Shown here: positions 4,031 to 48,497 of the stretch, piece after piece
How positions within the stretch are numbered: position 1 is the stretch's first letter
How the letters are laid out: each line of letters begins with the position of its first letter
Origin: Papaver somniferum
Taxonomy: Eukaryota; Streptophyta; Magnoliopsida; Ranunculales; Papaveraceae
Assembly (NCBI RefSeq): GCF_003573695.1
Contig: NC_039358.1
Location: 195,698,150 to 195,762,149, forward strand
Reading direction: 5' to 3'
Length of the DNA: 64,000 nt
Program-made: the position numbers and the translations under genes
Notes under the pieces: model-generated
What the model was told of the DNA's origin: nothing
Databases searched by the model: none
The model's input: only the letters and a program-made list of their open reading frames with translations

Positions 4031-4096
4031 TTTTTTTTTGTAAGTCCAAAATTGTATTAATGAATATCAAAAAATAACAAGAAGTTTACAAGATAA

Positions 4097-4113
4097 GAGG
4101 TTTAGAAAACCCC
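4097..4113 (-). other. 3'-terminal hairpin of LINE-A
   Basis: In the sense direction it reads GGGGTT-TTCTA-AACCTC, a 6-bp stem with a 5-nt loop and one G-U pair. It lies about 60 nt upstream of the poly(A). The same 6+5+6 layout occurs in LINE-B, C and D. In several LINE systems a 3' stem-loop is what the reverse transcriptase recognises, and that role is inferred here. Confidence 0.6.
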
Positions 4114-4910
4114 AAAAACTCACAAACTAATTAAATCTATAATATGGAAATTTGGATATTCTAAAGAACTAACAAAATAAGGTCTCTCATCATAGTTCAT
4201 CCCTTCACCATTACCAAGTAAACATCCTCTTTTTGCCATAGAGTCTGCTGCAAAATTTGCTTCACGGTATGTGTGCATAAATCTAATAGAGTCATAATTC
4301 TCCTGAATACTTCTCCAACGCTGCTTTGCAAACCATGGAATATTATTATGAGAGAAAGCCATAATAGCTCCAATTGAATCTGAGTGCACCAACACCTTTC
4401 TAATCTCCCACTTTTGGGCCCATTCCAAACCAACAATCACACCATATAACTCAGCCAAGAAATTATTTGTGCAACCTAGACCAATGCTCATAGCACCAAT
4501 GAAGTTGCTGTCATGATCTCGGGCTACAACTCCATCCCCAGCAATCCCCGGATTCCCTTTCGAAGCACCATCACAACACAAAAGAAGTTCATCTCTATTT
4601 GGAGGGTACCAAAAACACTCAATAGGTTGAGTATTCTTCACTTTCCTATGCTTAACACGGAAGTAGTTCAGAATTTCCAAGTCTTCAGCAGTGTTATACA
4701 TAAAACTCTTCAAACGCATAGAGTATTCATGAATCTGATGAAAAACTCTTTGCTTGAAAAAATGAATGCTTATGCTTTTGTTTTCAAAATACTCCAGATT
4801 TCTAGCATGCCACAGTTCAGCTCGAACAACTAGGATTGATAACAGCCAAAGATCTTTGATAATTCTACTTCTTCCTTTTGAAACTTTGTAAGCATCAACA
4901 ATATTAAAAT

Positions 4911-4923
4911 GAGGTTGAAGAGA
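4911..4923. repeat. NA-1 target-site duplication, left copy
   Basis: GAGGTTGAAGAGA is part of LINE-A ORF2. It is duplicated without mismatch at 6110-6122, on the other side of NA-1. Confidence 0.95.
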
Positions 4924-5055
4924 CAAGAGTCCGTGCAAACTAGGAAAGCTCAGCAAGAGTCTGTACAAACTGGGAAAGCTCAGCAAGAATCCGTGCAAAC
5001 TAGGGAAGCTCAGCCAATTTTGGGAGATCAGTCCGTGCAAACTCTTAAAGCCCAG
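4924..5055 (+). repeat. 30-bp coding minisatellite in NA-1 ORF1
   Basis: Three near-identical 30-bp units lie at 4924-4953, 4954-4983 and 4984-5013. A spacer and a partial unit (5032-5055) follow. Each unit encodes QESVQT[R/G][K/E]AQ. They sit where other ORF1 copies in the window have a Ser/Val/Thr/Gln-rich linker, so repeat-length change in this linker is likely. Confidence 0.9.
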
Positions 5056-5934
5056 CAAGAGTTCGTGTCTAAAAAGAATTTGGAAGATATTCCAAATATT
5101 CAGTATGATTCTGCGTTTATAACAAACTCAGTTATGGAAACAAATTCCGTGTTCAAGCAAAATCCTGAAAAGGGTACTACCAGTTCTAAAGAGGATTGGA
5201 AAATAGTTATGGGTAAGAACTCCCCTAATAAACGTACATCTTTTAAATTTAAATCTTTTGATACTCCTTTGGTGGATGAGCTTTTTCAAGCTGAACTTGT
5301 GGTGAATAACAAGTATGGTGCCCTAGCTTCAGAGTTAGGTCTTACTAATGATTCTAGTGAGTTTTTGGTGGAGGAGGAACAAGATGATTCTAGTGACTCG
5401 GACAATAGTATGGGTTCGAAAGATTGGGGTGAAGTTGTTGCAGATATTCTAGCCAGGAAGCAAGCTAGAAAGGCCAAGCAAGCTGCCAAGATCATGGCTA
5501 TGAATTCAAAGTGTAATGAGGACAGTCCAAGCCGTGAGCATAACAAGGACATTCAAGCAGGGTTGGAGGAAAATGTTTTTGATCTAGATAATATTTTGTC
5601 TACAGAGGAACTAGATGAGGCAAGTACTATTCAACTTGATGAAGTGCGTACTAAATTCATTAGAGATCCATCCTTTCGACGAGACTATTTAGAGGAAAAA
5701 AAGAAGAAAATGGATAAAATGTCAACAAAAAAGAATGTTCAATCTCCTATTAAGCTTGTTCCAGGTGGTAATTATGCTTCAGATGAAAATGAACAGGATT
5801 ATGACAATGATGAAACTTATGATGATTATGAAGATGAATTCAAGGGGCACTATGATTTGACTAAAATAATTGATGATCTCATTCCCAAGAAGAGGAATTT
5901 TAGAGTTGGAAATAAGGGGAGAAAACGTTATTAG
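4924..5934 (+). CDS. NA-1 ORF1 C-terminal fragment (no native start)
   Basis: The frame is open from before the insertion point to TAG at 5932-5934, about 336 codons within the element. The ATG at 4909 lies in LINE-A target sequence and is not a native start. The fragment begins with decapeptide repeats (QESVQTRKAQ type). An acidic, low-complexity middle follows. Its C-terminus carries PIKLVPGGNYASDE, an acidic Asp/Tyr stretch and a basic tail, LIPKKRNFRVGNKGRKRY. NA-2 has the same signature (PIKLVPGGNYASDE, and a PKKKNFKVGKGRKRC tail). The N-terminal RNA-binding region and zinc knuckle are missing through 5' truncation. The part present has no internal stop, which suggests a recent insertion. 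It is probably not expressed, since no promoter of its own is visible. Confidence 0.8.
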   Translation, partial: QESVQTRKAQQESVQTGKAQQESVQTREAQPILGDQSVQTLKAQQEFVSKKNLEDIPNIQYDSAFITNSVMETNSVFKQNPEKGTTSSKEDWKIVMGKNSPNKRTSFKFKSFDTPLVDELFQAELVVNNKYGALASELGLTNDSSEFLVEEEQDDSSDSDNSMGSKDWGEVVADILARKQARKAKQAAKIMAMNSKCNEDSPSREHNKDIQAGLEENVFDLDNILSTEELDEASTIQLDEVRTKFIRDPSFRRDYLEEKKKKMDKMSTKKNVQSPIKLVPGGNYASDENEQDYDNDETYDDYEDEFKGHYDLTKIIDDLIPKKRNFRVGNKGRKRY

Positions 5935-6109
5935 TTTTCTTCTTTATGCTATTTTTTAGTGCTTAAGAGTTTATTTTATGCGTTTTTTAGAGTTCTTTGC
6001 CCCTTTGGTTTATGGGGGTATGGAGGCCTAGCGCCTCCCATTTTGTAATTCTTGTAATTACGTTTTTTTGCTTTAATAAACCATTTTGACCTAGCAAAAA
6101 AAAAAAAAA
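5935..6109 (+). other. NA-1 3' UTR with hairpin and poly(A)
   Basis: This non-coding tail holds an inverted repeat at 6020-6041 (ATGGAGGC, loop CTAGC, GCCTCCCAT with one bulged base). It then has TTTAATAAACC and GACCTAGC followed by 14 A. NA-2 has the homologous tail. The last 26 or so nt also resemble the LINE-B end (CTTTAATACAATTTATTGAC, then TTATCA). Confidence 0.85.
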
Positions 6110-6122
6110 GAGGTTGAAGAGA
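6110..6122. repeat. NA-1 target-site duplication, right copy
   Basis: GAGGTTGAAGAGA follows the NA-1 poly(A) and matches 4911-4923 exactly. Confidence 0.95.
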
Positions 6123-9100
6123 GAAAATACCTGCAATCCACTCCCAAACTTGTGTTGCATAAGAACAAGTCTACAAAATATGATATAAGGATTCCTCTTC
6201 ACACTTACACAAGTAACATCTATTAGCCAATTCCACTTTAAACCTACTTCTGATCTTGTCAGAAGTTGCGCAAGCTTCTTGGCAGAGTTTCCAGTTTTGT
6301 GCAGCAAGTTTAGGGTGATTAGACTTCCTCCATAGCAAGCCAAAATCCTCCAAAACTGTATACTTCTTCCTAATAAGCTCCTTGGCTGATTTAACCATGA
6401 AAACCCCATGTAAATCATGCATCCAGACCCTGCAGTCAGCTCCTCCACGTAAAACTGGCAGATTTGAGGCTTCAACACCAGCACTCATCAACACCTGACC
6501 GTGAACTCCATGAAGATGCAAAGCATTATCAATAAGAATATCACTCACCTTGGTAGAAAAATCCTGTTCATAGTTTCCTAATATATCAGCAATGCTTTGA
6601 GTACCATACCAAACATCATAATAAAGAGATGTTGATCTTCCATCACCAAGAAGAACTTTAGTGTTTTTATCAACCAGATTCTGAACTACTTTAATCCCTG
6701 GAAATATAGAGGATTTAACACCATAACGCTTCAATCTCCCACAAGTATAAGTATATTTCACCCATAAGAAACGCGCCCATTTTTTTGAGAAGAATGAATA
6801 CTCCACCACAACTTCATAAGCATAGCTCTATTGGTGATTTCCATGCTCGTAATACCTAAGCCACCTTCTTTCAAAGGACAACAAACTTTAGGAAAACCAA
6901 CAACAAATTTTCTAGCTATCTACGCATCACCAGACCAAAGGAAGTTACGAATCACTCTTTCAGCTTGTTGAATGAACTTCTTAGGCCATTTATAGACATC
7001 CATGTTGTGAATGGTGTAACTAGAAATCACTGAGTTAATTAGAAAAATTCTATCTTGAAAAGAAAGAAGTTTACCTTTCCAAACAGCAAGTTGATTTTTG
7101 ATTTTATCAATAACATTGCTTATGTGACGATATCGAACTGCACCAGGCATAATTTGCACACCCAAGTATCTATCAGGGAAAGTAATAACACTCATATCAA
7201 GTAAATCAGTGATAGTTCTGCATCTACTCAACGAACCTCCACCATAACATACCTTACTTTTATGACGACAAACAGATTGACCAGAGGCCGCTTGATATTT
7301 TCCAAGCAAAACAAGAAGGTTATTCAAGCTCTTCCTGTTGCCCTTACAAAAGATCATAATGTCATCAGCAAAGAAGAGATGAGTGGGAGAAATACCTCTT
7401 TTAGAGAGCATAGGAGTTATCTTCTTTTCTAGAAAAAGCTTGGTAAGATTTCTACTGAGCACATCTTCAATTAGGACAAAAATCAGAGGAGATAAGGGGT
7501 CACCTTGTCTTAGACCTCTATTAATCTTGAAGAATCCTTCTGGGTTACCATTTAGTAGAATAGAAATACGCGCCGAGTTCAGAATTGAAAGAATCCAAGA
7601 GCACCAATTGTCAGAAAAACCATACCTCCGAAAGACCTCCAAGACAAAAGACCAGCTAACCGTATCAAAAGCTTGAGTAATATCAAGCTTGAGACCAGCA
7701 TTGCCATCCTTACGTTTTGTCTTAAGATCATTAACCATTTCTGAAGCAACACTTATGTTTTCATGAATGTTACGCCCCTTCATAAACGCAACTTGCTCTT
7801 CTGAAACAAGATTATCAAGGACACTACCAAGTCTAGTAGCTAGGATCTTAGTGAAAATTTTAAAGAAAAAATTACTAAGACCAATAGGCCGAAAATTATT
7901 AAGAGTGTTTGCTCCTTTTACCTTGGCAAGTAAAATCAAGAGACTAGAATTAGTACCTTGAGGAATAACCTTCTCTGTCCAGCAATAAATGATAGCATTA
8001 TAGATGTCTTGCTGAATTATCTCCCAACAATGTCTATAGAAACAACCAGAGAAACCATCAGGGCCAGGCGCACTGTCAGCTCCAAGATTAAAAACCGCCT
8101 CTTTAATTTCATCTAGATTCGGAATTGCATCCATTCTTTGACTGTCTTCAACAGAAATAATGTTGTGCTCATACTCAAACAGATCTTCCTCTATAGGCAG
8201 GTCTGAACCATTAAATTTAGCCTCATAAAAAGACACAACATGGTCTCGAATTTGTTCAAAATCTGTTAGAACATTCCCATTACCATCTACCACTTCAGAA
8301 ATCATATTGTTGCTCCTACGAGTTCTAATATTGGCATGAAAGAAAGAAGTATTACTTGCACCCTCCAACAACCATTTACTTCTTGATTTTTGTTTTAACA
8401 TAATGGCTTGTTGAGCTCTAATGTCTTGGAGAGTAATTGACGCATCTTTGGCAGCATTAAGCTTGCTAACATCCTCAGGATCTTCATCAGAAATACGAAG
8501 AGCAACTTCTAAAGTCAGTTTAGCTTGCTTAAACCTAGCATGAACATTACCAAAAACCCTCATATTCCATTCTTTTAGACCATTCTTCAATCGCTTAAGC
8601 TTGAAGGGAAAGATAAAAGCCGGAGAACCTAAAACAGGAGCATTCCAGTTCTCCCTAACCAAACTCATGAAATCATTATGCACAAACCACATCTTTTGAA
8701 ACCTGAAAGGAGCTCTTTTTGGCCTCAAAAAAGTAATAGGAAAACCAATAATTGCAGAGTGATCGGATACTTCCCTAGGGAGAGCCTTACATCTCCAGTT
8801 CTCAAATTTATTCAGCCAAGCTTCATTAATCAAGGCTCTATCCAATTTACAAAGAATTCTTCTTACACCTGATTGACCATTAGCCCAAGTGAATTTAGAA
8901 CCCAAGGAGTCTGCTTCAAAGAGATCATTATCATCCATCCAATCAGCAAATTCATTGATGACAGAAGTTCTAGGCTCACGCCCTCCTCTTTTTTCCTCAT
9001 TACGTAAGACACAGTTGAAATCTCCCATGACTAACCAAGGAGTTGTACAATCACGAGAAGACAGTTGCTGCCATAAGTTTCTTCTAGTGACTTGAATACA

Positions 9101-9415
9101 ACTTGCGTGAATGAAAGAGATCATAACACCATCAACTTCAATTGTAACAGCTTGTTTGCTAGAGTTTATTACATTAGGCATTACCATCTCCTCAGACCAA
9201 AAGATCCAAATATTCCCTTTCAACCTCCCAACAGAATTATGAATAATGTTTCTCATATAACCAGAAATATGTAAACCTTGCACAAATTTATCAGAACAAT
9301 AAACCTTAGGTTCTGCAATGCAGAATATATCAGGCTTAAATTCTTTAATTAACTCCTTCAGCTTGTCTCTGGCTGCCTCACGAGCAACTCCATTGATGTT
9401 CCAGAAGAGAACACG

Positions 9416-9420
9416 CATTA
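9416..9420 (-). promoter_or_regulatory. TAATG stop/start overlap between LINE-A ORF1 and ORF2
   Basis: In sense direction the ORF1 stop TAA (9420-9418) shares its last A with the ORF2 ATG (9418-9416). LINE-B has the same TAATG and LINE-D has TGATG. UAAUG coupling by termination-reinitiation is known for the silkworm LINE SART1. A similar mechanism is inferred here. Confidence 0.8.
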
Positions 9421-10990
9421 CAAACAAGTTTTGGAGGAAACATTACCCATCTTAGAGGATTCACCAGAGTATAAACTCAACGTGTTTCCTTTTGTCAAAC
9501 AACTTCCTTTTCCTACACAATTTCCTAACAAAGAAACGTTCTCAGTTTGGAAAGCCTCATCAGTTTGGGAGACCGTGTGAGTTTGGGAAACCCTACCCGT
9601 AGAATTATTAATACGTCGCTGCATGATTTGCATGCGATTACGTTTAAGCTCTTGTTCAGCCCTAAATTTTGCATCAGCCTCACTTTCAGGCATCTCATTC
9701 CCTAGGTTTAGAGCATCAAACTTATTTCTCTTCAACAAGTACTCACCATCCATCAGTTGATCACTAAGAGGAGTTGGAGTTGAACCAGTCCTAACAGATT
9801 TAGGAATCTTAGTTACTACCTCACCTGTCTTAGTTGATGATTCAATTTCACCCACTGAACCATCATTAACTAAAACTGAATTTGATGCATGAATTTGTTT
9901 AGTTCTTTCCAATTCAACATAAACAGCATCAAGTTCAGCTTGGGACTTAGCCATTGCAACCTCCAACTGCTGAGCCTTCTCTAGTTTAGCAACATACTCC
10001 ACATCAACATCTCCAGTTATACTAATATCTGTTGTTTCATTAGAAAACTGCTGTTTTTTTTTTTTTGCTAAGACAAGAAAATATATTGATAAAAAACTGC
10101 TGTTTTTTGCTGCTTTGAAGCCTTCTTACCCTTTTTCTTACGCTGCGCCACCTTCCATTTTGTACCTTGTTGGACCTCAGAACTAGATCGCTGTTGGACA
10201 GCTACAATCTGTTGTGTTGGAACTTGGTTATCCACATTGTTTTTGGCTTGTTTTCTACATTCCTGATCTGTATGACCAATTATCTTGCACTTAGAACAGA
10301 ATTTCGGAATCTTTTGAATCTCAACAGGTTGTAAGAAATCCACACCACCACCAGAAACATGGATAGCATCAGTAGCAGGCTCTGCGAAGTCAATATCCAC
10401 CAGAACTGCAGCAAAGTGACCATATTCATGAGCTAAAGTACGTTTATCAACAACTATAGGAGTACCCAGAGACTTTGCCATTGTTAACAGCGTTTTTCAG
10501 TCCAAAACTCCATTGAAAGTCCAGGAAAAGTAACCCATACCGAAGCATGAGAAGAACGTTGCTTCTCAGCATCAAAACCTGGAAACCATTCTATTAGGTT
10601 TAACTTCTGATGGCCAAAAAACCAAGCTTCTACGTTCATAATCTTATCTTTTGCTTCTTGAGATCTTAGCTTGATAATGAAGAAACCCCTGCTCATAGGG
10701 ATAAATTGTAATAACTCTTGCCCTAATTGCCATTTCTGTTCAAAATGATTTTTAACCTCTTGAAAGTTTATACCTTTTAGATCAAGACGACCTATAAGGC
10801 TACATTTCCAAATATCACAACCTTCATAATAGAATGAATCCGGAAGAACCACAGCTGGTTTTCCTTCTTTCACCGTGGGTTTTGGAAGAGTATTAATATC
10901 AATCATGGTTGTTGGAAGCTGTTGCTTTCCCCTCACTTGATCCGCATATGTCATGGTCTTTAACCTTGTTGTTTGAGCTTCATCACTCAT
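9418..10990 (-). pseudogene. LINE-A ORF1, nucleic-acid-binding protein (frameshifted)
   Basis: This would be an RNA-binding chaperone that packages LINE RNA. The start MSDEAQTT is at 10990. A DUF4283-like region spans about residues 45-200 (landmarks MSRGFFIIKL and WFPGFDAEKQ). The intact CCHC knuckle CSKCKIIGHTDQEC follows. After it come a basic KKGKKASK stretch, a helical Lys/Ala/Glu segment (EYVAKLEKAQQLEVAMAK) and a linker with SQT repeats. Breaks: a 1-base frameshift near 10488 at an A-run (EKRC then stop, with the frame continuing as LLTMAKSLG), and a 39-bp LINE-tail insertion plus duplicated target at 10044-10102, which shifts the frame again. The ORF ends in the TAATG overlap with ORF2. 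Confidence 0.9.
10054..10092 (-). mobile_element. 39-bp LINE 3'-end micro-insertion in LINE-A ORF1
   Basis: A run of 13 T followed by GCTAAGACAAGAAAATATAT is flanked by AAAACTGCTG at 10044-10053 and 10093-10102. In minus-strand sense this is only the last 26 or so nt of a LINE plus poly(A). It matches the end of LINE-D (TTTGCTAAGTC at about 48402-48412, then AAGAAAATATATTGATAAAAA) with about one mismatch. It is an extremely 5'-truncated insertion. Confidence 0.85.
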
Positions 10991-11175
10991 TCCAAATCAC
11001 CAAAAGATGATTGAAATCCGTGAAGAATAATGAAAAGAATTTTTTTTTTTTTGTAAAACCTTAACAAAAACGCCTTGGAGGGATTTTTTTCAGGAGAGAG
11101 AAAAAAAGTATCGCTACCTAGGATGTGATTTGGGAAACCTTGTAACCTTACAAGGAATGATTTTTCAGTTGAGGA
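10991..11175 (-). other. LINE-A 5' UTR
   Basis: This 185-bp leader lies between the element 5' end and the ORF1 ATG. It contains pyrimidine-rich stretches and an 18-nt inverted repeat at 11138-11155 (CCTTGTAA-CC-TTACAAGG). An internal promoter would be expected in a full-length plant LINE, but I see no diagnostic motif. Confidence 0.65.
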
Positions 11176-20466: not shown

Positions 20467-20599
20467 CATATTTTTCATTTTCTTGAATTCCTGGTCATAG
20501 AGGAGGGGTATTATGAGGAGAAAGAAAATCTGGCGATTTTCCTAGGGTTTTGTGCGTTTTTCAATTTTCTTCTTCAATTATTGTTTAATCTTCAGATTA
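20467..20599 (+). other. LINE-B 5' UTR
   Basis: This 133-bp leader contains CTGGCGATTTTCCTAGGG and TTTTGTGCGTTTTTC. LINE-C has nearly the same string in its leader (CTGGCGACTTCCTTAGGG, then TTTTGTGCG), and NA-2 has GGCGATTTTC. It is a candidate internal promoter or RNA element shared by autonomous and non-autonomous members. Confidence 0.6.
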
Positions 20600-20775
20600 A
20601 TGATAACTGAGGAAACTGTGTTACGTATTACGAATGGATCACCAACTCCAACCTTTGCGGAAAAAGTGAAGGTACGTCAAACTTTACAGCTTACGGCTGT
20701 TGATGTTAGTAGTCTGCCAAATCCCACGTTAATTAATAGAGAACCATCTTTGGTAATCCCTACCGATTTTTACCT

Positions 20776-20789
20776 GGAAGGTTGTAAGC
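20776..20789. repeat. NA-2 target-site duplication, left copy
   Basis: GGAAGGTTGTAAGC lies in LINE-B ORF1 just before the NA-2 T-run. It is perfectly repeated at 23062-23075. Confidence 0.95.
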
Positions 20790-20854
20790 TTTTTTTTTTT
20801 TGCTAGGTCAAAATGGTTTATTAAAGGAAAAAAATGTAATTACAGAATTACAAA

Positions 20855-20878
20855 GTGGGAGGCTCAAGGCCTCCCCAC
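20855..20878 (-). other. 3' UTR hairpin of NA-2
   Basis: In sense direction it reads GTGGGGAGGC, loop CTTGA, GCCTCCCAC, with one bulged G. NA-1 has the homologous hairpin closed by A-T (ATGG/CCAT) where this one is closed by G-C (GTGG/CCAC). That is a compensatory pair change supporting a selected RNA structure. It may be a recognition element for ORF1 protein or for reverse transcriptase. Confidence 0.7.
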
Positions 20879-20983
20879 CCCCATAAACCAAAGGGGAGAA
20901 AAATTAACATCAAAAGTCACTAGAAACTCATAAAATAAGCTCATAAACTCAAATAACTAACAAAAAAGAAGAAAAATAGGAAC

Positions 20984-22930
20984 TTAACATCGTTTGCGCC
21001 CCTTTCCCACCTTAAAATTCTTCTTCTTAGGTTGGAGACCAGCAAGGATTTCCGCCAAAACTTCAGGGTCTCCATAAAACTCATTATATTCAATATCATA
21101 AATATCATCATATTCATCTTCATCCGAAGCATAATTACCACCGGGAACAAGCTTAATAGGAGTTTGAGGTTTTTTCTTCTGTCTTTTTTCTTTAATGCCT
21201 ACCTCTGCAAGCTCCTCTTCATTGAGAATATTTTCCGTCCTTTGTTGCCTTATAGCTTCTAATCTATCAAGAAAAGCTTTCTTCTTTTCTGCATCAACAG
21301 TTTCAGTTGAACTCTCAACTAAATCTGTAGCCTTTGAAACATTGCTATTCTTGTTTTTATTGTGATCACTAATCGTACCCCATTCAGTAGAATTTTTAAC
21401 TTCAGCTGCCATATTAGCAGCAAGCAATTCAGCCTCTTCCTCATCTAAATCTTCAACAATACTTTGCTGAACTTCCTCCAAATTAGCACCCTCAACATCA
21501 TCTCTAAAACCCAATTCTGAACTTAACACTTCATATGTATTTTTCCTAACTTTTTCAGAAGATTCAAGTAAAGCATCAGTTAGAGGCGTAAAAGAAATTT
21601 TTTTACCTTTCACTGGCGTCCAATTCTCATTAGATGCCTTAGTAAACGTAATAGGGTTGGAAACTGACTCGTTTTCCAAATCAGACTTGGAAACTGACTT
21701 CTTGTTGGTCACGGACTTGTGAACCTCAGAGTTTTGCAAAGTCACAGACTTTTCTTCCAAATTAGCCCCAGGAGTATTTTCCAAAGTAGACACGGTTTCA
21801 GAATTTTGCTTGGACTTAGTTGTACCAATCTTGTTCCCGGACATACCAGCTTCAACAGGCTTAGTCACAGCTCCTTTACGTGCAGAAATAGCTTCCTTAG
21901 CTGCAATTACGCTTTTGCACTTGATTAACCTGAATTGAGCCTCATGGAATTCTTTTGAAGAAATAGCAAGCTCATTCTCCAACTGTTCAGTGCTAGATTG
22001 AACGGTAGCCTCAATTCTGTTATCATTAGTAACTCCAATAGTACTTGAATCTGAAGCACAAAGTATAGTTTCCTGATTTGCAGCCTTGTGCTTCTCAAAA
22101 TCTTGTTCAATTTTATTAGTGTTACCATCCACGCCCACACTACCTTCTGGTAAAACAACTTTAGATTTGATTTGCCATCTCTTACCAGCATTAGGATCAT
22201 AACTACCCTTAAAAGTCTTCTCTCCCACGACTACTTGTTGTTGTTTCTCTTTGTTCCCATCAAGTTTAGTCGACTTCTTCTTGCATTCAGCATCCGCATG
22301 ACCAATAATATTACACTTTGAACATAACTTTGGATATTTTTGAATATCAATATATTGCCAAAACTCTTTTCCACCTGAGGTTATATGAATTCTCTCTGGA
22401 ATATGCTTAGCAAAATCAATATCTATTAAAACTGAAGCATAAAAACCATAATCAAGTTGTAAAGTTTTTTCATCCACCACAATTGGATTACCTAGAATCT
22501 TACCAATTGAAAGCAAAGACTTTTCAGTCCGAAGCTCAACCGGTAAATCTGGAAACATAACCCAAACAGCAGCATGTGAAGAACACGAAAGCATAACTAT
22601 GAAGAAACCTTTATCCATTGGAAGAAATTTAATCCGTTCAAGGTTCCATTGATCTAAAGGTTGTGTCTTAACTTCAGAAAACTTCAAACCCGTGAAGTCT
22701 AATCTAGCAATAAAACTATGTTGAAATCTGATGCAACCCTGTTGAAACAAATCCAAAGGGATTTCTAACGCAGGTTCACCTTCTTTAAGAGTTGGATTAG
22801 GTAACTTGGAAAGATCAACAGATGTTGGAATTAGGGTTTTCTTTCCTTTGAGAATATCAGCAAAAGAACCATGACTACCATTAGGATTTTTAATCCCTGA
22901 TGTTGTAGGGATTGATGATTCAATCATCAT
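20984..22930 (-). CDS. NA-2 ORF1 protein, DUF4283-like plus CCHC zinc knuckle, intact
   Basis: The ORF is 648 codons, starting MMIESS (the second Met could be used). Residues 40-185 or so resemble the LINE ORF1 DUF4283 region (LPNPTLKEGEPAL, FIARLDFTGLKF, MDKGFFIVML, NPIVVDEKTL). Relative to LINE-A, B and C it lacks about 36 residues in frame between FIVMLS and SHAAVWV, the stretch that holds the RNKKW and DWYPGFDPERQ motifs. CSKCNIIGHADAEC is an intact CCHC knuckle. Downstream come a long Ser/Thr/Glu-rich region, a linker with repeated SV[S/T] motifs, an acidic segment, PIKLVPGGNYASDE and a basic tail, KKKNFKVGKGRKRC. The role is inferred as binding element RNA and possibly recruiting ORF2 in trans. 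No stop or frameshift is seen. Expression is unknown. Confidence 0.88.
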   Translation of the reverse strand: MMIESSIPTTSGIKNPNGSHGSFADILKGKKTLIPTSVDLSKLPNPTLKEGEPALEIPLDLFQQGCIRFQHSFIARLDFTGLKFSEVKTQPLDQWNLERIKFLPMDKGFFIVMLSCSSHAAVWVMFPDLPVELRTEKSLLSIGKILGNPIVVDEKTLQLDYGFYASVLIDIDFAKHIPERIHITSGGKEFWQYIDIQKYPKLCSKCNIIGHADAECKKKSTKLDGNKEKQQQVVVGEKTFKGSYDPNAGKRWQIKSKVVLPEGSVGVDGNTNKIEQDFEKHKAANQETILCASDSSTIGVTNDNRIEATVQSSTEQLENELAISSKEFHEAQFRLIKCKSVIAAKEAISARKGAVTKPVEAGMSGNKIGTTKSKQNSETVSTLENTPGANLEEKSVTLQNSEVHKSVTNKKSVSKSDLENESVSNPITFTKASNENWTPVKGKKISFTPLTDALLESSEKVRKNTYEVLSSELGFRDDVEGANLEEVQQSIVEDLDEEEAELLAANMAAEVKNSTEWGTISDHNKNKNSNVSKATDLVESSTETVDAEKKKAFLDRLEAIRQQRTENILNEEELAEVGIKEKRQKKKPQTPIKLVPGGNYASDEDEYDDIYDIEYNEFYGDPEVLAEILAGLQPKKKNFKVGKGRKRC

Positions 22931-23061
22931 AAACCAACCGTAGCTGTTTTAGATGATCAAAACGTGAGAAAAATCAAAACCTAGGCGTGAAAAAAAGTTG
23001 GAAAAGAAAATCGCCTTTTAGAGAAAAAAACGGACATAACTTCTCTCTTGAAAAGGTATTA
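22931..23061 (-). other. NA-2 5' UTR
   Basis: This 131-bp, T-rich leader has the GGCGATTTTC motif shared with LINE-B and a CCTAGGTTTTG segment resembling CCTAGGGTTTTG of LINE-B. It is the likely site of an internal promoter, by analogy only. Confidence 0.55.
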
Positions 23062-23075
23062 GGAAGGTTGTAAGC
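23062..23075. repeat. NA-2 target-site duplication, right copy
   Basis: GGAAGGTTGTAAGC precedes the resumption of LINE-B ORF1 and equals 20776-20789. Confidence 0.95.
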
Positions 23076-24567
23076 CTTTTGAGTTTAGATTTATTGCAAG
23101 ACTCAACTTCACGGGTTTGAAGTTTTTGGAGGTGAAGAACAATTTAGTTACTCAATGGCAGATAAACCCTAACTCGGTTAGGTTTATGTCTATGAGTAAG
23201 GGTTTCTTTGTAGTTATGTTGCGTGATGAGCATACAAAAGCCAGAATCCGTAACAGGAAATGGTTTGTTAATCAACAAGAGCTACGTATGATGGATTGGT
23301 ACCCTGGTTTCGATCCTGAAAGACAAAATACTTCCCATGCACCTGTTTGGGTTCATCTCCCGGGTCTTCATGCAGAGTTATGGACTGAGAGATCTTTGTT
23401 ATCCATTGGGAAAGCAGTTGGTAATCCGATTGTAGTTGATCAAAGAACATTGAATCTGGAGTTTGGAAGCTACGCATCAGTGCTAGTTGATGTAGATTTT
23501 GCAAAACACATTTCTGACAGAATTCTACTAACAGCTGGTGGGAGAACTTTCTGGCAATATGTGGAGATACCTAAGCATCCAAAATTCTGTTTGCATTGTA
23601 ACATTATTGGACATAATGAGAGTGAGTGTAGGAGGAAACCAAAGTCTGATGAATCTGTCAAGGAGACGGAGGATACTCAAGAATGGCAGGCAGCTAAAGG
23701 TAAGAAGCGATCACGCAATCGTAAGAAGAATAACAATCAAGAAGGTACTAGTGGTGTTGACAAGTCAGGCGATGCAAACACTGGCGCGGGGAAACTGTTA
23801 ATGTGCCTGGTGCAGGTAAAGATATTAATATACTTGTTGTTGTTGGGGAGAATGTTGCTGGTAAGGAGGATACTAGTCAGCTTGAAGAGGTGCTGGCTGC
23901 TTCTGAAGCTCAGCTTCGTGCAGCGTCTGACGCTGTTGAGACAGCTAAACAGGCGCTTGCTGCGAAAAGAGCATTAGCTAACATACTGATGGTAGATGAA
24001 ACCACAATTGCATCTAAGTCAGGAAAGAGTGATGAATTGGCGAGAACTAATCACTCTAGTACTGATAGGAACCAGGCCAACTCTTCTACTCCCTTTATAC
24101 CTATTCAAGACGCAGTGGTTCATAGTATTGCGGAGACACCTACCTGCAATGCTTTGACGGATAATACTGTGGTTATCTCACCGAATAAATTTGATGTTTT
24201 GACAGCTGAGTTGGGGCTAGACAACACAGTGCAACAATCTAATCAGGAGGAGGAGAGTTCGGATGAGGAACTCACGCCAGAGAAAGCATCAGCAGGTGTC
24301 AAGGGAGCCAAATGGTCCGAGATTCCAGTTGAGAAAGTTGTGACTAAGCAAACTAGGAAGCCTGGTCGTGTTCTAATTCAGACTAGTTCGCAACAAAGTA
24401 CTTCACAAAGTTATACTCAAAACAAATCTCCAGAATCCAAGTCTGACTCGGACTCTGAGGTTAATGATTTGGGAATCAGAGTTAGCAAAGGTTTCTCTCC
24501 AGTTATTGAAAAAAGAGTTCCGATTAAGAATCCTAAGATATCTTCTAAACCAAAAAAGACGGTTTCC

Positions 24568-24572
24568 TAATG
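24568..24572 (+). promoter_or_regulatory. TAATG stop/start overlap between LINE-B ORF1 and ORF2
   Basis: The ORF1 TAA (24568-24570) and ORF2 ATG (24570-24572) share one A. The arrangement is the same as in LINE-A, which supports coupled translation. Confidence 0.82.
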
Positions 24573-25641
24573 CGAGTTCTCTTTTGGAATGTCAATGGAG
24601 TGTCGAAGGTGGAGGCTGGTTTGAAGTTACGTGAGTTAGTTAAGGAGTTTAAGCCGGTTCTTATGTGTATTGCTGAGCCGGAAATCCCTTATTCAGATGG
24701 TGTTATGTTACGGATTAATTTAGTTGGTTTTGTTAAGAAGGCAGTTCATAATTCTACTTCAAGTTCTATTGGTAATCTTTGGATTATTTGGAGTGTAGAT
24801 ATTGAAGAGCCAGTGGTGTTAAATATGACTAGGCAGGCTATTACGGTGAAAACAGAAGGAGTCTTTATTTCTTGTGTTCATGCTAGTTATATCCAAGTTT
24901 TTAGAAGGAGATTATGGAGTCAACTTTCTGCGGTGGATTCTACTACTCCTTGGTTGGTAATTGGAGATTTTAACTGTGTTCTTCGTAATGATGAGAAGAA
25001 GGGTGGTAGAGATGTTCTTACTTCTAGTATTAATGAATTCATGACTGGATGGAAGAGACTTTTTGAGGCAGATTCTTTGGGTTCCAAGTTCACTTGGACT
25101 AATGGTCAATCGGGGGTGAGAAGAATTATTAGAAAGTTGGATCGTGCTATTATTAATGAACCTTGGTTAACTAAATTTTCGAATTGGCGGTGTAAAGCTC
25201 TTCCTAGGGAAGTTTCCGATCATTCGACTCTTATTGGTTATCCTTTTGTTGCTTCTAGGCCGAGACATGCTCCTTTCAGAATTCAGAAAATGTGGTTTAC
25301 GCATCCTGATTTTTTGAGAATGGTTGAGACTTCTTGGAATGCTCCGGTGTATGGTAATCCTGATTTTATTTTTCCTTTCAAGCTGAAGAGATTGAAGGTA
25401 GCTATGAAGTTGTGGAATCAGCAGGTGTTTGGTAATGTGAATGCAAGACTCAAACAGACTCAATTGAAGTTTGAAGTGGCTAGTAGGAATTCGAATGAAG
25501 ACCCGTTTGACACTTCTAAGCAGAATGAGATGAAGGATGCGCTTGTGGCTGTTCAGGAGGTGCGTATGCAGCAGCATATTATGTTGAAGCAAAAATCTCG
25601 CACCAAATGGATCTTGGAGGGTTCTAGTAATACTTCGTATT

Positions 25642-25657
25642 CTTAGCAAAAAAAAAA
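25642..25657 (+). mobile_element. 16-bp LINE-tail micro-insertion with 14-bp target duplication
   Basis: CTTAGC followed by ten A lies between TAATACTTCGTATT (25628-25641) and TAATACTTCATATT (25658-25671), which differ at one base. CTTAGCA-An is the very end of the LINE 3' tail (GACTTAGCA-An in LINE-D). This looks like a target-primed reverse transcription product that stopped after only about 6 nt of template beyond poly(A). It puts a TAG in ORF2. Confidence 0.8.
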
Positions 25658-26091
25658 TAATACTTCATATTTCCATAATACTATTAATACTCGTAGAAGT
25701 GCCAATACAATTTCGGAGTTGGTAACAGATGATGGGTCCCTTATCATTGATCCAGACCACTTAAGAGACCATGTTGTTTCTTATTATGAAAGTAAATTTA
25801 ATGGAGTAGATACGCAGATTGAGGATAGTTTGTTTGAGTATGATCATAATTCTATTTCTCTTGAGGAAAGGTATATGCTGGATTCTATTCCTTCTTTGGA
25901 GGAAATTAAGGTGGCGGTGTTTGATTTGGGTGTGGATAGTGCTCCAGGTCCGGATGGTTTCTCGGGGTGTTTTTATAGACATTGTTGGGGTTTAATTCAT
26001 CAAGACCTAGCTAAGGCTATTATTTTTTGCTGGAACAACAAAACTATTCCTAATGGGGCTAATTCTAGTCTCATTCTTTTGCTTGCTTCAA

Positions 26092-26165
26092 CATAATATG
26101 CAAGATTTTAGTAACCAATTGGTCTAAGTAAAAAAAATTTCAAAATTTTTACAAAATTTTAGCAA
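26092..26165 (+). other. Deletion/rearrangement scar in LINE-B reverse transcriptase
   Basis: The segment between LLLA and ATRLG of the RT is shortened and degenerate. Only CCAATTGGTCTAAGTAA and nearby bases still resemble the PIGLSNFFFKIFTK coding region of the other LINEs. The bases between 26090 and about 26122 do not align with the homologous codons. Confidence 0.65.
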
Positions 26166-28678
26166 CCAGACTTGGAAAAGTCTTAGATAATTTGGTTTCA
26201 GAGGAACAAGTGGCTTTTATGAAGGGGAGAAATATTCATGAAAATATTAGTTTGGCGTCTGAATTGGTTAATGAGCTTCACATTAAAAGAAAGGATGGCA
26301 ACTTAGGTCTCAAACTTGATATTTCTCAAGCTTTTGATACAGTAAGTTAGACTTTCGTCTTGGAGCTGTTTCGTAGATATGGTTTCTCAGAGGATTGGTG
26401 TACTTGGATTCACAATATTCTGAAGTCTGCCAGGATTTGTATTCTTCTTAATGGGAGTCCGGAGGGTTTTTTCAAGATTAATAGAGGTTTGCGTCAAGGG
26501 GATCCACTTTCTCCTCTTATATTTGTTTTGATAGAGGATGTTCTAAGTAGGAACATTACTAAACTCTTTCAAAATAAGTGTATGACTCATATGGTGAAGC
26601 GTAATGGTATTGCTCCAACTCATTTATTTTTTGCTGATGATATTATGATCTTTTGCAAGGGTAATATGATGAGTCTAACAAACTTAGTGAAGCTCCTGGG
26701 TGATTATCAACAAGCTTCTGGTCAGCGAGTTTGCAGGGAGAAGAGCAAAATTTATTTTGGAGGTGGGTCTTTGCATAGGAGGCAGTCTATTGTAGACTTC
26801 TTAGGCATGGGAGTGACTTATTTCCCGGATAGATATTTGGGGGTTAAAGTGATGCCTGGAGTGGTGAAGTATAGCCATATTAGTAACGTGGTGGATAAAC
26901 TGAAGGACCATCTTTCGGTTTACAAAGGTAAGATGCTTTCATTTCAGGATCGTGTGGTACTTGTTAAAACCGTCCTTTCAAGTTATGCGATTCATAGCAT
27001 GGCTGTGTATAAATAGCCTATTAAATTTGTTAAACAATGTGAACGTGTGATTCGTAATTTCCTTTAATCGGGAGATTCAAACTTGGCTAAAGCTTTTGTG
27101 GTTGGTTATGACAAGATCTGCAGTCCGGTGCGGGAAGGGGGTCTTGGGATAACTAGCCTAAGCAACATGAACAAGGCACTGATTATGAAGTTGTGGTGGA
27201 GTATTAAAGCTTCTACGAATAAATGGGCTAGATTTCTGGATTCGAAATTCACTTGTAGAGATGGTCGGCTGAAGTTGGCTGGAGTTAAATCTTCAATTCT
27301 TCCTGGGATTCGTTGGGTGCACACTGAAGTTATGCGAAATACTATATCTTTAATTGGTGACGGTAGAGCAACTTCACTATTTTATGATGTTTGGTACGGG
27401 TCTGAAGCTTTGGCAGATGTTTTGCAGCGAACTGACCTTGACAGAAATGCAAGGGTTAGTGATATCATTGTGCAGGATCAATGGCAGCTGGAAGGAGTTC
27501 ATATGCACGACCTCGTCAGTGCTGGTGTGGTTCTGGAGAGCTTGCCAAGGAGGCACACAGGCAGTGATAGGAATATATGGATGCCGGACCTTAAAGGTTT
27601 ATTCTCTGTTAAGTTTGCAAGGGAGCTGGTGAGGACGAGATATCCGGTGCTGGAGGAAGCAAACCTGTTATGGAAGAGTGTTGTGCACCCTTCTCTGGCA
27701 ACGCAAAATTGGAAGTTTGTCAGGGGAGCTTGTGCAACTCTGGATAAAGTAAATAGGAGGTTCAAGATAACTCTTCCGTCGAGGTGCAGTGTGTGCCAGA
27801 TTGAGGAGGAGTCTTTGGAACATGTTCTTTGGAGCTGTAGTGTTGCGAAACGTGCTTGACAATGGCTGGCAGGTATTTTCCATATTATTCCTCATTATAA
27901 CTTGCTTGCTGCTAACAAGGAAGCGAAAGGGCGTAGTAGAATGGTTAAAGACCTGTGGTTAGTCTCAATCTTGGTGCTGCGTTCGGAGCTGTGGTACCAA
28001 AGGAATAAGATGGTTTATGAAAAGAAGAAGCCTTGCTGGACTTTGTTCAAAAAACGTGTGTTTAACCTCATTCATGAGTACTCGGCTAGAATGACAGGAT
28101 GTATGTTCAACAAGGTAGAAGATCTTGAGATTCTGAATTTTTTCAGAGTTGAATGCCGTAGGGTGAAGATGTTAGAGCCTGTTGAGTGTTTTTGGCAACC
28201 TCCTATGCAAAATAAGCTCTTGCTGTGCTGTGACGGTGCCTCTAGAGGCAATCCAGGGGTGGCGGGAGCTGGTGTGGTGGCGAAAAATTCGACTTGTGAA
28301 GTGGTTGGGGCGATGCGTGTTGGTCTTGGTATTATTTCCAATTATATGGCGGAATTGTATAGCATTCTGATTGGTTTAGAATGGGAAGTTCAATGGGGAT
28401 ACCGTGATGTTCTAGTGCGGACTAATTCATCAAGTGTCATTACAGCTTTGGAAGGGGAATCTATTCCTTGGTTTGCTAGACAGAGATGGTGTGATGTTAA
28501 GGGCATGTTTGATTCTATAAATTTTGTGCACACGTACTGTGAAGCCAATTTCGCAGCTGACAAGATGGCGAAGACTGGTTGCTTTTTAGATTATTGAGTG
28601 AGACTCACTTTTGTTGGTCGTCCTGATTTGTTAAATTCAATAGAATTCCCATATGTTTCCTATTTTCGATTTAAATAG

Positions 28679-28784
28679 TATTTTGAGTTTTTGGGGTTGC
28701 TGTGACCTCTTTTCTCATGTACTATCTTGTAAATAACTCTTTTCTTTAATACAATTTATTGACTTATCAAAAAAAAGAAAAAAA
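28679..28784 (+). other. LINE-B 3' UTR with hairpin and poly(A)
   Basis: It contains the hairpin GGGGTT-GCTGT-GACCTC at 28693-28709. TTTAATACAATTTATTGAC, TTATC and an A-rich tail interrupted by one G follow. The terminal 26 or so nt resemble the NA-1 and NA-2 ends. Confidence 0.75.
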
Positions 28785-37361: not shown

Positions 37362-37428
37362 TTTTTTTTGATAAGTCAAAAAATCGTATTGATCAAAAAA
37401 ATTATTTACAAGATAGTTTATGAGAAAA

Positions 37429-37445
37429 GAGGTCAAAGCAACCCC
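37429..37445 (-). other. 3'-terminal hairpin of LINE-C
   Basis: The sense strand reads GGGGTT-GCTTT-GACCTC, a 6-bp stem with two G-U pairs. The layout is the same as in the other LINEs. It is followed by the terminal GACTTATCA-An. Confidence 0.6.
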
Positions 37446-40400
37446 AAAAACTCAAAAAACTATTTAAAACGATAATAAATTACATTAGGAAACTCAATAT
37501 TCCTTAAGAAAGAAGGACGCCCAACAAATTGGATTCTCACTCCCTTATCTAACATGCACCCAGGCTTTGCCATACCATCCGCTGCAAAATTTGCTTCTTG
37601 ATAAGTATGAACAAAACGAATAGAATCATAGAGACCCTTAACCTCCAACCATCTTTGCTGCGCGAACCAAGGAACAGTATTCTCCTCCAAGGCTGTTAGA
37701 ACACTAGCCGAATCTGATCTAAGCACAATAAGTCTATATCCCCACTGTTTCGCCCAATCCAAGCCAATCAAAATACCATATAACTTCGCAATATAGTTAG
37801 ACACGATGCCTAAACCAATGCACATAGCTCCAACCACTTCACAACTTGAATTTCTGGCCACAACACCAGCTCCCGCCACTCCATGGTTGCCCTTTGAGGC
37901 ACCATCCATGCATAACAACAGTTCATCATTATTTGGCGGAAACCAATAACACTCTTTAGGATCAGTGCACTTCACCTTTCTGTAGCTTACACGAAAGAAG
38001 TCAAGGATCCTCAAATCCTCCATCGTATTATGCATAAAACTCTTCATTCTAATGAGTACTCTTGCACCAAGTTAAAAAATCGTTTTTGGAACAACGTCCA
38101 GCAAGGGGTTTTATTTTCATAAACTTTTTTGTTCCTCATGAACCATAATTCAGAGCGGACAACCAGGTTCGCCACCAGCCATAAATCGTTAACAATGCCA
38201 CTACGATGCTTAGCTTCATTGTATGAGGTAATCAGATCATAATGGGGTTTGATATTAAAAATACCTGCAAGCCAATTCCAGGCCTTTTCCGCAAAACTGC
38301 AACTCCAAAGCACATGTTGAAGAGACTCCTCAGCACTTTGACAAACACAGCAGTTTGAAACTAACGAAATATGGAACCTGCTACGAACTTTGTCGAGTGT
38401 TGCGCATGCACCACGAACAAACTTCCAGTTCTGTGCTGCTAGAGAGGGATGAACTACCGTTCTCCATAACAACGAAGCTTCTTTCATAATAGGATATTTC
38501 GTTCTAATCAAATTCTTAACCGACTTGATAGAAAACACTCCCTTCAGGTCAGGCATCCAAATTCTTCTATCCTGGCTATTGCTAAGCCGAGGCAAGTCTT
38601 CCAAAACCACTCCTGCGCTAGTTAGATCTTGCAAATGAATACCCTCCAGCTGCCAGTTACCTTGCACAGTAATATCACAAACCCGTGTTGATCTGTCCAA
38701 GTCTGTGCGGTTCAAAACCTTAGCTAAAGACTCAGTTCCATACCGAACGTCATAGAATAAATAAGTAGTTCTTCCATCGCTAATAATGCACTTCGAATTA
38801 TCTAACATATCCTGATGAACCAAACGAAAGCCAGGTAAAATGGAAAATTTAACGCCTGCCATCTTAATACGACCATCCCTACAAGTGAACTTCGCCTCCA
38901 AAAAACGATCCCATTTCTTATTAGAATATTTAATCGACCACCACAATTTCATAAGCAACGCTTTATTCATAGTCCGCAGGCTAGTAATCCCAAGACCACC
39001 TTCCTTCACCGGGCTACAGATTTTGTCATAACCAACCACAAACGCCCTAGTAAGATTTGAATCTCCCGACCAAAGGAAATTGCGAATCACACGCTCACAT
39101 TGTTGGATGAACTTAACCGTCCATTTATACACAGCCATGTTATGAATAGAATAACTCGAAAGAACATTTTTAACAAGCACAACCCTATCTTGAAAAGATA
39201 GTAACTTGCCTTTTAAAACCGAAAGATGATCCTTAAGCTTGTCAACAACATTGCTGATATGCCTATACCTCACCGCACCTGGCATAACCTTAACTCCCAA
39301 ATAACGGTCCGGAAAATAAGTTATTTCCATACCTAAGAAATCTGCAATGGTCTGACGCCTACTTAAAGACCCACCACCATAGTAAATCTTGCTCTTTTCT
39401 CTACAAACTTGTTGGCCAGAAGCACGCTGATAAGACTCAAGTAACTTCACCAAGTTTGTTAAGCTTTTCATATTTCCCTTGCAAAAAATCATAATATCAT
39501 CAGCAAAGAATAAATGTGTAGGAGCAATACCATTACGTCTTACCATATGAGACATATCTTTATTCTGAAAGAGTTTAGAGATGTTACGGCTAAGAACATC
39601 CTCTATCAAAACAAAAATAAGAGGCGAAAGGGGATCCCCTTGACGCAAACCTCTATTAATCTTGAAAAAACCTTCTGGGCTCCCATTAAGAAGGATGGAA
39701 ATACGAGCTGATTCCAGAATTTTCTGAATCCAAGTACACCAGTCCTCTGAGAAACCATATCTTCGAAACACCTCCATAACAAAAGACCAACTCACACTAT
39801 CAAAAGCTTGAGAAATATCAAGCTTTAGACCCAAATTTCCATCTTTCCTTTTGATGTGTAGCTCATTCACCATTTCAGAGGCTAAACTTATATTTTCATG
39901 AATATTTCTTCCCTTCATGAAAGCAACCTGCTCCTCAGACACCAAATTTCCCAAGACCTTACCAAGCCTGGTAGCAAGAATCTTAGTGAAAATTTTAAAG
40001 AAAAAATTACTGAGCCCAATAGGTCTATACTTCCTCAAGCTATCAGCACCACGGACCTTAGCAAGTAAAAGAATAAGACTCGAATTAGCTCCATTCGGAA
40101 TGGTTTTATTAGCCCAGCAATAAGTAACAACAGAAAAAAGGTCGAGATGAATCAAATCCCAATAATGTCTATAAAAACACCCTGAGAAACCATAAGGACC
40201 AGGTGCACTATCCGCACCTAAATCAAAAACCGCCGCCTTAATCTCTTCAATAGAAGGAATAACATCCAGCATCTGACCCTCATCCAAAGAAATTGAATCA
40301 TGGGTATAGTCAAACAGCTGATTATATATAGGAAGGTCCTCCCCATTGAAGTTAGCCTGATAATAAGAAACTACATGGTCATGAATATGGTTAGGATCAG

Positions 40401-41243
40401 AAATTGTAACACCATCTTCATTAACAAGCTCCGAAATAGTATTAGCACTTCTTCGAATGTTGATTGAATTATGGAAGAAAGAAGTATTACTAGAACCCTC
40501 TAATAACCACTTATTACGAGATTTCTGTTTTAGCATAACATGTTGTTGCATACGAAATTCCTGGACAGCAACTAGAGCATCCTTCATAACATTGAGTTTA
40601 GAATTATCAAACGGATCTTCATCCGAATTCCTACAAGCCACTTCAAAATTTAGCTGCGCCTGCTTTAGTCTAGCATTCACATTACCAAAAACCGTTTGAT
40701 TCCATAACTTGATAGCCTCTTTCAATCGCTTCAGTTTGAAAGGAAAGATAAAATCCGGGCTACTATAAACCGGAGCATTCCAAGAAGCCTCCACCATTCT
40801 CAAAAAATCTGGATGAGAAAACCACATCTTCTGAATACGAAAAGGAGCACGCCTAGGCCTAGGAGCAATAAAAGGAAAACCAATAAGAGTCGAATGATCG
40901 GAAACTTCTCTTGGAATAGCTTTACACCGCCAATTCGAGAACTTAGTTAACTAAGGTTCATTAATTATAGCAAGATCAAGTCTACTAAGAATCCTCCTAA
41001 CGCCAGATTGTCCATTAGTCCAAGTAAACTTAGACCCCAAAGAATCAGCCTCAAAAAGATCATTGTCCGCCATCCAGTCTGTAAACTCATTGATGCAAGA
41101 AGTACGAGTTTCTCTGACCCCTTTCTTCTCATCTTCCCTAAGAATACAATTGAAATCTCCTATGACCAGCCAAGGAGTTGTAGAATCTACCGTTGAGAGT
41201 TGACTCCATAACCTCCTTCGATAAACTTGAATATAACTAGCAT

Positions 41244-41468
41244 TTTTTTTTTGTTTTTTTTTTGTTCATAAAAATGTTGAATTTTATATATGTTAACTAA
41301 AAAAGTCTACACACTTCGTTATACGTCTGAAATTGATTTCTGAGACTAAATTGTAAACTAGATAAACTCATCTTTAACAGATTTTTTTTGATAAGTCAAA
41401 ATTTTGTATTAATAGATAACAAAATTTACAAGAAATAGTTTACAAGAAAAGAGGTTACAAAAGAGGTT
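41244..41468 (-). mobile_element. LINE 3' end fused to satellite: probable 3' transduction
   Basis: In minus-strand sense the order is: about 79 bp of LINE 3' end finishing TTTTGACTTATC (41468-41390), A8 (41389-41382), 118 bp of satellite (41381-41264), then a second A-rich tail, A10-C-A10 type (41263-41243). The whole is flanked by ACTAGCAT (41236-41243) and ACTAGAAT (41469-41476). The target is the LINE-C endonuclease, which resumes after it. The simplest reading is a LINE sitting in satellite whose transcript read past its own poly(A), ended in satellite and was reinserted 5'-truncated. Confidence 0.82.
41264..41381 (-). repeat. Satellite fragment carried inside the chimeric insert
   Basis: GTTCATAAAAATGTTGAATT through CATCTTTAACAGA is a partial satellite monomer, isolated within LINE-C. 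It lies between two A/T runs and is not continuous with any array. Confidence 0.93.
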
Positions 41469-41783
41469 ACTAGAATGAACAAAAGAGATGTAAACCCCCT
41501 CAGTTTTAACCGTAATGGCCTGCCTTGTCATATTAATCACCACCGGCTCTTCAATATTCTCAGTACAAAGAACCCATAGATTACCTATATATTTGAAGAG
41601 GAATTATGAATTGCTTTCTTACAAAACCCACTAAATTAAGCCTCGACATCACACCCTCAGAATAAGAGATCTTCGGTTCAGCAATGCAAAGAATAACTGG
41701 CTTATACACATTAACTAACTCACGAAGCTTCAAACCCGCCTCCATCTTCGCCACCCCATTGATATTTCAATAGAGCACACGAA

Positions 41784-43436: not shown

Positions 43437-43571
43437 CGTTAACCAAAGATCAATCAAAGTTGAAGAAAATTTTGAAAAAACGCACAAAACCCTAAGGAAG
43501 TCGCCAGAATTTCTCTCTTCTCATTTTTAATTATTTTTTCGATACATGTGTCATCAAAAAGAAGTCCCGGG
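43437..43571 (-). other. LINE-C 5' UTR
   Basis: This leader of about 135 bp includes CTGGCGACTTCCTTAGGG and TTTTGTGCG, matching the LINE-B leader. The element boundary is set by the target duplication starting at 43572. Confidence 0.6.
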
Positions 43572-48395: not shown

Positions 48396-48463
48396 TTTTT
48401 TTTTGCTAAGTCAAGAAAATATATTGATAAAAAAGATATTTACAAGATAGGTGAAGGAGAAAA

Positions 48464-48480: not shown

Positions 48481-48497
48481 TAAAAAACTCCTAAAAC

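Follow-up and report, generated by a model that had tools for sequence, protein, structure and literature searches.

Long interspersed nuclear elements (LINEs) that carry only ORF1, the first open reading frame, are already known in mammals (HAL1) and flies (HeT-A). HAL1 is described as a non-autonomous L1 derivative with ORF1 only and several origins in mammals (PMC5753468), and HeT-A as an element with Gag and no reverse transcriptase, its gag being reportedly under negative selection (PMC5537684). For plants, the accessible text on Celine from poplar describes DUF4283 in ORF1, a full ORF2 and nesting in centromeric DNA (PMC11288735). A 2013 review counts just three pairs of LINEs and short interspersed nuclear elements (SINEs) in flowering plants; in its accessible text, maize ZmSINE2 and ZmSINE3 have a hairpin-bearing 3′ tail in common with the L1-clade element LINE1-1_ZM, one plant L1 lineage is proposed to recognise a hairpin tail, and mammalian L1 is thought to read poly(A) (PMC3747384). 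We found no plant LINE described as ORF1-only in the open-access literature, as covered by titles and abstract openings and with subscription journals mostly outside. Here, we analysed a stretch of 64,000 nucleotides from Papaver somniferum (contig NC_039358.1, positions 195,698,150 to 195,762,149; hereafter the window), in which a non-long-terminal-repeat (non-LTR) retroelement, termed el, very probably represents a multi-copy plant L1-type family with ORF1 only, a counterpart of HAL1 and HeT-A that would be copied in trans by the ORF2 of resident LINEs via a common 3′ tail.

A sequence-only reading had described el as a 2272-bp unit with a perfect 14-bp target duplication, poly(A), untranslated regions (UTRs), an ORF1-type frame of 648 codons and no ORF2, and its coordinates proved to be exact (Table 1). 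The poly(A) consists of 12 A at 20790-20801, appearing as T on the forward strand, and the window sequence 20790-23061 codes for no ORF2. The same reading took ORF1-only to be the normal plan of the element and proposed to count copies in the genome. A search of the 2.715-Gb assembly with the el unit yielded 2318 first-look candidates, and scoring the best 40 led to 109 matching pieces; 39 best-matching places were fetched, and the 37 that have the 3′ end form our sample, leaving L041 and L047, which are without it, outside. All counts given here for the el family, including the c2 subfamily described below, refer to such best-scoring places and are no census. None of the 37 copies shows ORF2 similarity inside the element, and the arrangement that the reading had set against itself, a usual copy with ORF2 between ORF1 and the 3′ UTR, was thus not encountered in the sample; ORF2 similarity occurs in the flanks of 11. 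ORF1-only is the form of the el copies sampled. They have a median span of 2396 bp, and because 20 of the 37 extend to query position 21 or less, the 5′ end is common to the copies, like the 3′ end. Target duplications of at least 9 bp were found at 18/37 copies versus 27/1332 mismatched flank pairs, and those of at least 11 bp at 14/37 versus 11/1332 (the counts of duplications and flanks keep segmental duplicates). Target duplications, poly(A) and the 5′ truncation of some copies show that the el family is multi-copy and retroposed.

ORF2-bearing relatives with the same 3′ UTR were sought by a further genome search, in which the best 40 of 1494 candidates were scored. From the places that were new, nine loci (L048-L056) were fetched, with 11 3′ ends, 10 of which cross the junction from the stop to the 3′ UTR, and a direct repeat of at least 10 bp was present at 5 of the 11 (no control run). 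L054 alone among the nine adjoins ORF2 sequence; it was rejected as an ORF2-linked relative, its 3′ end being a separate, 5′-truncated insertion with a 12-bp duplication. At L056, three LINE-type tails lie within about 450 bp (461-912), and an ORF1-only 3′ end stands in the same stretch at 2980-3069. Open frames of 722-747 codons are present in five of the 37 el copies (L009, L012, L025, L026 and L029), that of L026 continuing beyond the usual C-terminus, and absent from the other 32. L025 and L029 are probably one insertion that was duplicated, since their flanks are common to both. L022 (G000:C1:107559504-107563655) is a segmental duplicate of the window locus, comprising el and its host LINE B, with about 121 bp of the element missing. 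A 338-bp satellite lies within 1 kb of 16/37 el copies, a count that keeps segmental duplicates and has no genome-wide background.

The window contains a second ORF1-only copy, c2, from another subfamily. In a genome search with c2, the best 40 of 1837 candidates were scored, and 36 of these 40 matches, the window copy counted, cover at least 1150 of its 1186 bases at 96-100% identity. Eight c2-type loci were fetched, L057-L063 among them. Measured against L063, four (L059-L061 and L063) reach a full length of about 2.48 kb, L062 showing the same likeness across a longer stretch. A direct repeat of at least 11 bp occurs at five of the eight loci, two of the five being identical and apparently duplicates (no control run), and ORF2 similarity is limited to L057 and L058, where it lies outside the element. 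The L063 frame has 730 codons and finishes in the same C-terminal ORF1 block, KLVPGGNYASDE...KGRKR, that el and c2 have. In c2 and its relatives, ORF1 also contains the in-frame repeat QESVQTRKAQ/QESVQTGKAQ (c2 4924-5030). The 3′ UTRs of el and c2 align from just past the stop, with 50/63 positions identical in the first part and 88/97 in the last, the end being kept despite near-saturated silent sites in the frame. The two subfamilies are anciently separate and follow the same ORF1-only plan, in agreement with the sequence-only reading.

Selection on the ORF1 frame was assessed from nonsynonymous (dN) and synonymous (dS) divergence. For one copy per subfamily (L025 and L063; 665 aligned codons), dN was 0.55 and dS 1.46, giving a dN/dS of 0.38, which fell to 0.27 in the DUF4283-CCHC part, and the bootstrap intervals of pS-pN exclude zero. 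The window copies el and c2 gave a dN/dS of 0.46 over 293 codons. Within the el subfamily, 38 sequences (the 37 copies and the window) were reduced to 28, with a median dS of 0.057, by removing segmental duplicates (L022, L029, L036, L037 and L040) and copies whose 5′ end lies past query position 130 (L023, L024, L027, L039 and L042). Shared variants comprised 53 silent and 137 replacement changes, with 1 stop, and private variants 125 silent and 412 replacement changes including 21 stops. Stops made up 1/190 shared versus 21/537 private variants (Fisher p 0.023), and frame-shifting indels 0/6 shared versus 23/38 private ones, the other 15 private indels being in frame (Fisher p 0.008); it tells against the two tests that they take related copies as independent, for which reason their p-values are guides. 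Diversity at codon positions 1, 2 and 3 was 0.032, 0.045 and 0.045, mostly single-copy variation, with position 2 varying no less than position 3. Neutral simulation left the last 298 codons stop-free in 19/2000 runs at 0.1 substitutions per site, 2/2000 at 0.2 and 0/2000 at 0.4, and because stop-free runs are this rare, the open frame of el is not due to chance. These comparisons show a frame that, judged by its substitutions, is under purifying selection.

The frame of el itself had been called intact by the sequence-only reading. It is open, yet not intact, because el is without 78 codons relative to other genomic copies, in four in-frame gaps of 105, 21, 45 and 63 bp, one of which cuts the DUF4283 core. 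In a comparison with 27 further aligned copies, L046 alone is without the whole of the 105- and 21-bp stretches, through one large deletion; no copy is without the whole 45-bp stretch, and eight are without the 63-bp one. Of the 124 positions of the DUF4283 model, the el protein matches 73-124 only, whereas L025 and L063 match 3-124. A structure model of LINE C ORF1 was weak overall (mean predicted local distance difference test score, pLDDT, 48) and confident at about residues 81-150, in the order strand-helix-strand-strand-helix-strand. From this order and from the fold of the RNA recognition motif (RRM), we take the DUF4283 core to be RRM-like. The 105-bp deletion maps to about residues 130-164 of the model, the second helix and last strand, and el ORF1 would, on this model, have lost the second half of the RRM-like domain. 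The protein of el itself is probably impaired. Its CCHC motif, CSKCNIIGHADAEC, was recognised by eye and is unreported by Pfam at E 0.1. A protein search with el residues 430-648 gave zero matches; searches with the whole el and with the el/c2 alignment, each scoring the best 8000 candidates by common words, matched three proteins each, and an IMG/VR scan found no relative. We conclude that el is a retroposed but internally shortened member of its family.

ORF1 and the 3′ tail of the el family are homologous to LINEs A-D, ORF2-bearing elements of the same genome that lie in the window. In el, c2 and the four LINEs, the tail has the order GC stem, TTGTAA, T-rich stretch, AATA, TTGACYTA and poly(A), from which LINE A departs slightly; the LINE D tail terminates in TTGACTTAGCA(n), and those of el and c2 in TTGACCTAGCA(n). 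With the poly(A) stripped, the tails were locally aligned to LINEs A-D and compared with 3000 dinucleotide shuffles, none of which equalled the alignments of el with B and C or of c2 with A, B and C; 1 equalled el-A, 6 equalled c2-D and 23 equalled el-D. A covariance model made from LINEs A-D (R1), run on the whole window with filters off, returned the four LINEs, two LINE-tail remnants, c2 and el as its top eight matches, and the ninth, at 22.3 bits, was below c2 (35.5) and el (34.4), all scores including a contribution from poly(A). R1 also matched the 3′ end of 36/37 el copies, missing L027, and 11/11 3′ ends of L048-L056, these copies being mutual relatives. At the level of primary sequence, the homology of the el and c2 tails to those of LINEs A-D is firm. 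Folding each tail as a single sequence gave a hairpin in every one.

The copies sampled begin with a 5′ UTR, continue with an ORF1 frame that reaches 726-730 codons at most, and pass from it directly into the 3′ UTR. We propose that the element RNA is bound by its own ORF1 protein, and that the ORF2 protein of a resident LINE reverse-transcribes this RNA in trans at the target DNA, recognising the common tail by its hairpin, TTGTAA, TTGACYTAGC and poly(A). The frame would be kept open in replicating lineages because ORF1 would act on the RNA that made it. We infer trans-copying from the lack of an own enzyme and from the common tail, by analogy with SINE/LINE pairs and with plant L1 hairpin tails, and the selection results point to an action of ORF1 on its own RNA. 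Tentatively, and with considerable doubt on our side, the proposal might be extended to a double key, by which long-lived plant ORF1-only lineages parasitise LINEs through their own selected ORF1, acting on their own RNA, and through a copied, structured tail at the 3′ end that the helper ORF2 reads. In addition, ORF1 may resemble HeT-A Gag in directing insertions to chromatin rich in satellite and LINEs. Such a steering role of the encoded ORF1, or a sequestering one, is speculation.

Several observations weigh against this mechanism or the selection behind it. The 28 copies of the el subfamily gave a dN/dS of 0.71, just mildly under 1, and the dN/dS comparison that the sequence-only reading had proposed supports constraint between the subfamilies and mild constraint within this one. 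The last 61 codons of el and c2 gave a dN/dS of 0.60, which is not significant, nor is the difference in nonsynonymous share between private (0.88) and shared (0.69) variants (p 0.20; 28 copies); moreover, protein-guided alignment of diverged copies favours a low dN. The resemblance of the el 5′ UTR to LINE 5′ UTRs is unconvincing, since 242, 42 and 392 of 1000 shuffles were as good for LINEs B, C and A, respectively. The alignment-based hairpin has 0 compensatory pairs, and some rows disrupt two of the six pairs, so that the tail structure is just plausible. As the places examined were the best-scoring ones, an ORF2-bearing relative that ends in this 3′ UTR may exist in a rare or more diverged form.

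The alternative that survives best, rather unlikely in our judgement, is that el and c2 lost ORF2 separately from two related LINEs, a variant compatible with the explanation we prefer. HAL1, with its several origins in mammals, is a parallel, and el and c2 do not come out as sisters in a tree based on 107 columns of ORF1, where the c2-type protein P0006 lies on a long branch. However, their C-terminal ORF1 block is not found in LINEs A-D outside c2, a blastn search there for a source of the ORF1 C-terminus in ORF2 giving nothing below E 0.05 except c2 itself, and the alignment of their 3′ UTRs from just past the stop also speaks for a common origin. Very unlikely is descent from a domesticated host gene for ORF1, of the L1TD1 kind, through retroposition of its mRNA by LINEs: a selected open frame with many retroposed copies would appear alike, but the el and c2 subfamilies are both multi-copy, the 5′ end is common to copies too, and the tail is homologous to LINE tails. 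We give least credence to an origin of every copy from an ORF2-bearing LINE by a separate internal deletion of ORF2, at the time of insertion or later, which the richness of the window in nested insertions and decayed LINEs would suit; deletion per copy is largely refuted in this sample by the alignable stop-to-3′ UTR junction common to two subfamilies with a dS of about 1.5, by the 37 copies free of internal ORF2 similarity and by the single window candidate (41382-43571), which is part of the interrupted LINE C, and a single ancient deletion may lie at the origin of the family. We also rejected a LINE ORF1 transcript, polyadenylated prematurely and then retroposed, as the source, because the 3′ UTR has a LINE tail and does not consist of ORF2 sequence. 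The multi-copy ORF1-only family copied in trans by LINEs is the reading that we retain.

Table 1. Features of the ORF1-only copies and the LINEs in the window (window positions)
Feature	Position	Strand	Remarks
el, ORF1-only non-LTR retroelement	20790..23061	-	5′ end complete versus other copies; internally shortened
el target-site duplication, left	20776..20789	.	14 bp, perfect; GGAAGGTTGTAAGC
el target-site duplication, right	23062..23075	.	14 bp, perfect; GGAAGGTTGTAAGC
el 5′ UTR	22931..23061	-	131 nt
el ORF1-type frame	20984..22930	-	648 codons; partial DUF4283, CCHC motif by eye, C-terminal block
Deletion junction (105 bp, in frame) within DUF4283	22583..22584	-	by comparison with 27 other aligned copies
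el 3′ UTR	20790..20983	-	194 nt, poly(A) included
LINE-type 3′ tail of el	20794..20884	-	covariance model from LINEs A-D only, 34.4 bits, E 0.0018
Hairpin letters in el tail	20857-20875	-	within 20794..20884
c2, second ORF1-only copy	4924..6109	+	5′-truncated, other subfamily; inserted in LINE A
c2 target-site duplication	left 4911..4923, right 6110..6122	.	13 bp
LINE-type 3′ tail of c2	6012..6103	+	covariance model from LINEs A-D only, 35.5 bits, E 0.0011
LINE A, ORF2-bearing	4031..11175	-	host of c2; candidate helper lineage; 13-bp duplication 4018/11176
LINE B, ORF2-bearing	20474..28776	+	decayed; host of el; start approximate
LINE C, ORF2-bearing	37362..43571	-	14-bp duplication 37348/43572
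LINE D, ORF2-bearing	48394..53762	-	5′-truncated

The window (1-64000) is an array of the 338-bp satellite broken by the four LINEs, and its orientation is reversed between about 62740 and 64000. In PsoCENH3-occupied regions of poppy, LINEs are described as more prevalent than Copia elements (PMC11406182). The el copy lies antisense in ORF1 of the decayed LINE B (about 20474-28776). For LINEs B and D, no target duplication was found in the flanks tested. In LINEs A (9418-9427) and B (24570), the ORF1 stop overlaps the ORF2 ATG (TAATG), which suggests coupled re-initiation; el and c2 are without such a junction after the ORF1 stop. LINE A also contains in its ORF1, at 10059-10115 on the reverse strand, a LINE D-like tail of about 33 nt with poly(A) and a direct repeat containing CAGCAGTTTT on both sides, an extremely 5′-truncated insertion. 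In ORF2 of LINE C, at 41230-41475 on the reverse strand, a truncated LINE tail with poly(A) precedes about 118 bp of satellite, after which comes another A-rich run, a pattern such as 3′ transduction of downstream satellite by a short LINE copy would leave. LINE C, considered for its part 41382-43571, was rejected as a third ORF1-only element, because the sequence at 41181-43620 shows it to be one LINE interrupted by a short insertion of LINE tail and satellite.

A family of this kind in plants, having two old subfamilies, numerous copies (in the c2 subfamily 96-99% identical to the window copy) and a frame under selection, would add an independent case of a LINE parasite, one that retains the ORF1 gene instead of depending on poly(A) alone. 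Two questions thereby become open to testing in plants: the cis action of LINE ORF1, and the specific reading of 3′ tails by eudicot L1-clade LINEs.

Among the known systems, Celine resembles the el family in the DUF4283 of its ORF1 and in its nesting in centromeric DNA; it differs in having ORF1 and ORF2, and its accessible description contains no ORF1-only form. ZmSINE2 and ZmSINE3 are, as described, likewise non-autonomous and have a 3′ tail in common with a partner LINE, LINE1-1_ZM. SINEs, however, are short and non-coding and have a Pol III promoter, whereas the el family codes for ORF1 in about 2.5 kb; with full-length copies of 2.2-2.5 kb and open frames of 648-730 codons, it falls outside that class. 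HeT-A is similar in being, by the available account, a non-LTR element with Gag/ORF1 and no reverse transcriptase. Its copies are added to chromosome ends without target duplications, whereas the el family inserts internally, in LINEs and satellite, with target duplications. HAL1, as it is described, is the counterpart in being ORF1-only and non-autonomous, and the el family differs from it in its plant host, its DUF4283/CCHC ORF1 and a 3′ tail homologous to resident LINEs. In the strict sense, HAL1 means descent from mammalian L1, and the poppy genome and the DUF4283-type ORF1 set the el family apart from it. Hence, of the plant equivalent of HAL1 that the sequence-only reading saw in el, the intact frame does not stand and common descent is not claimed, but the way of working probably does, the tail offering a route to trans-mobilisation: the el family would work like HAL1.

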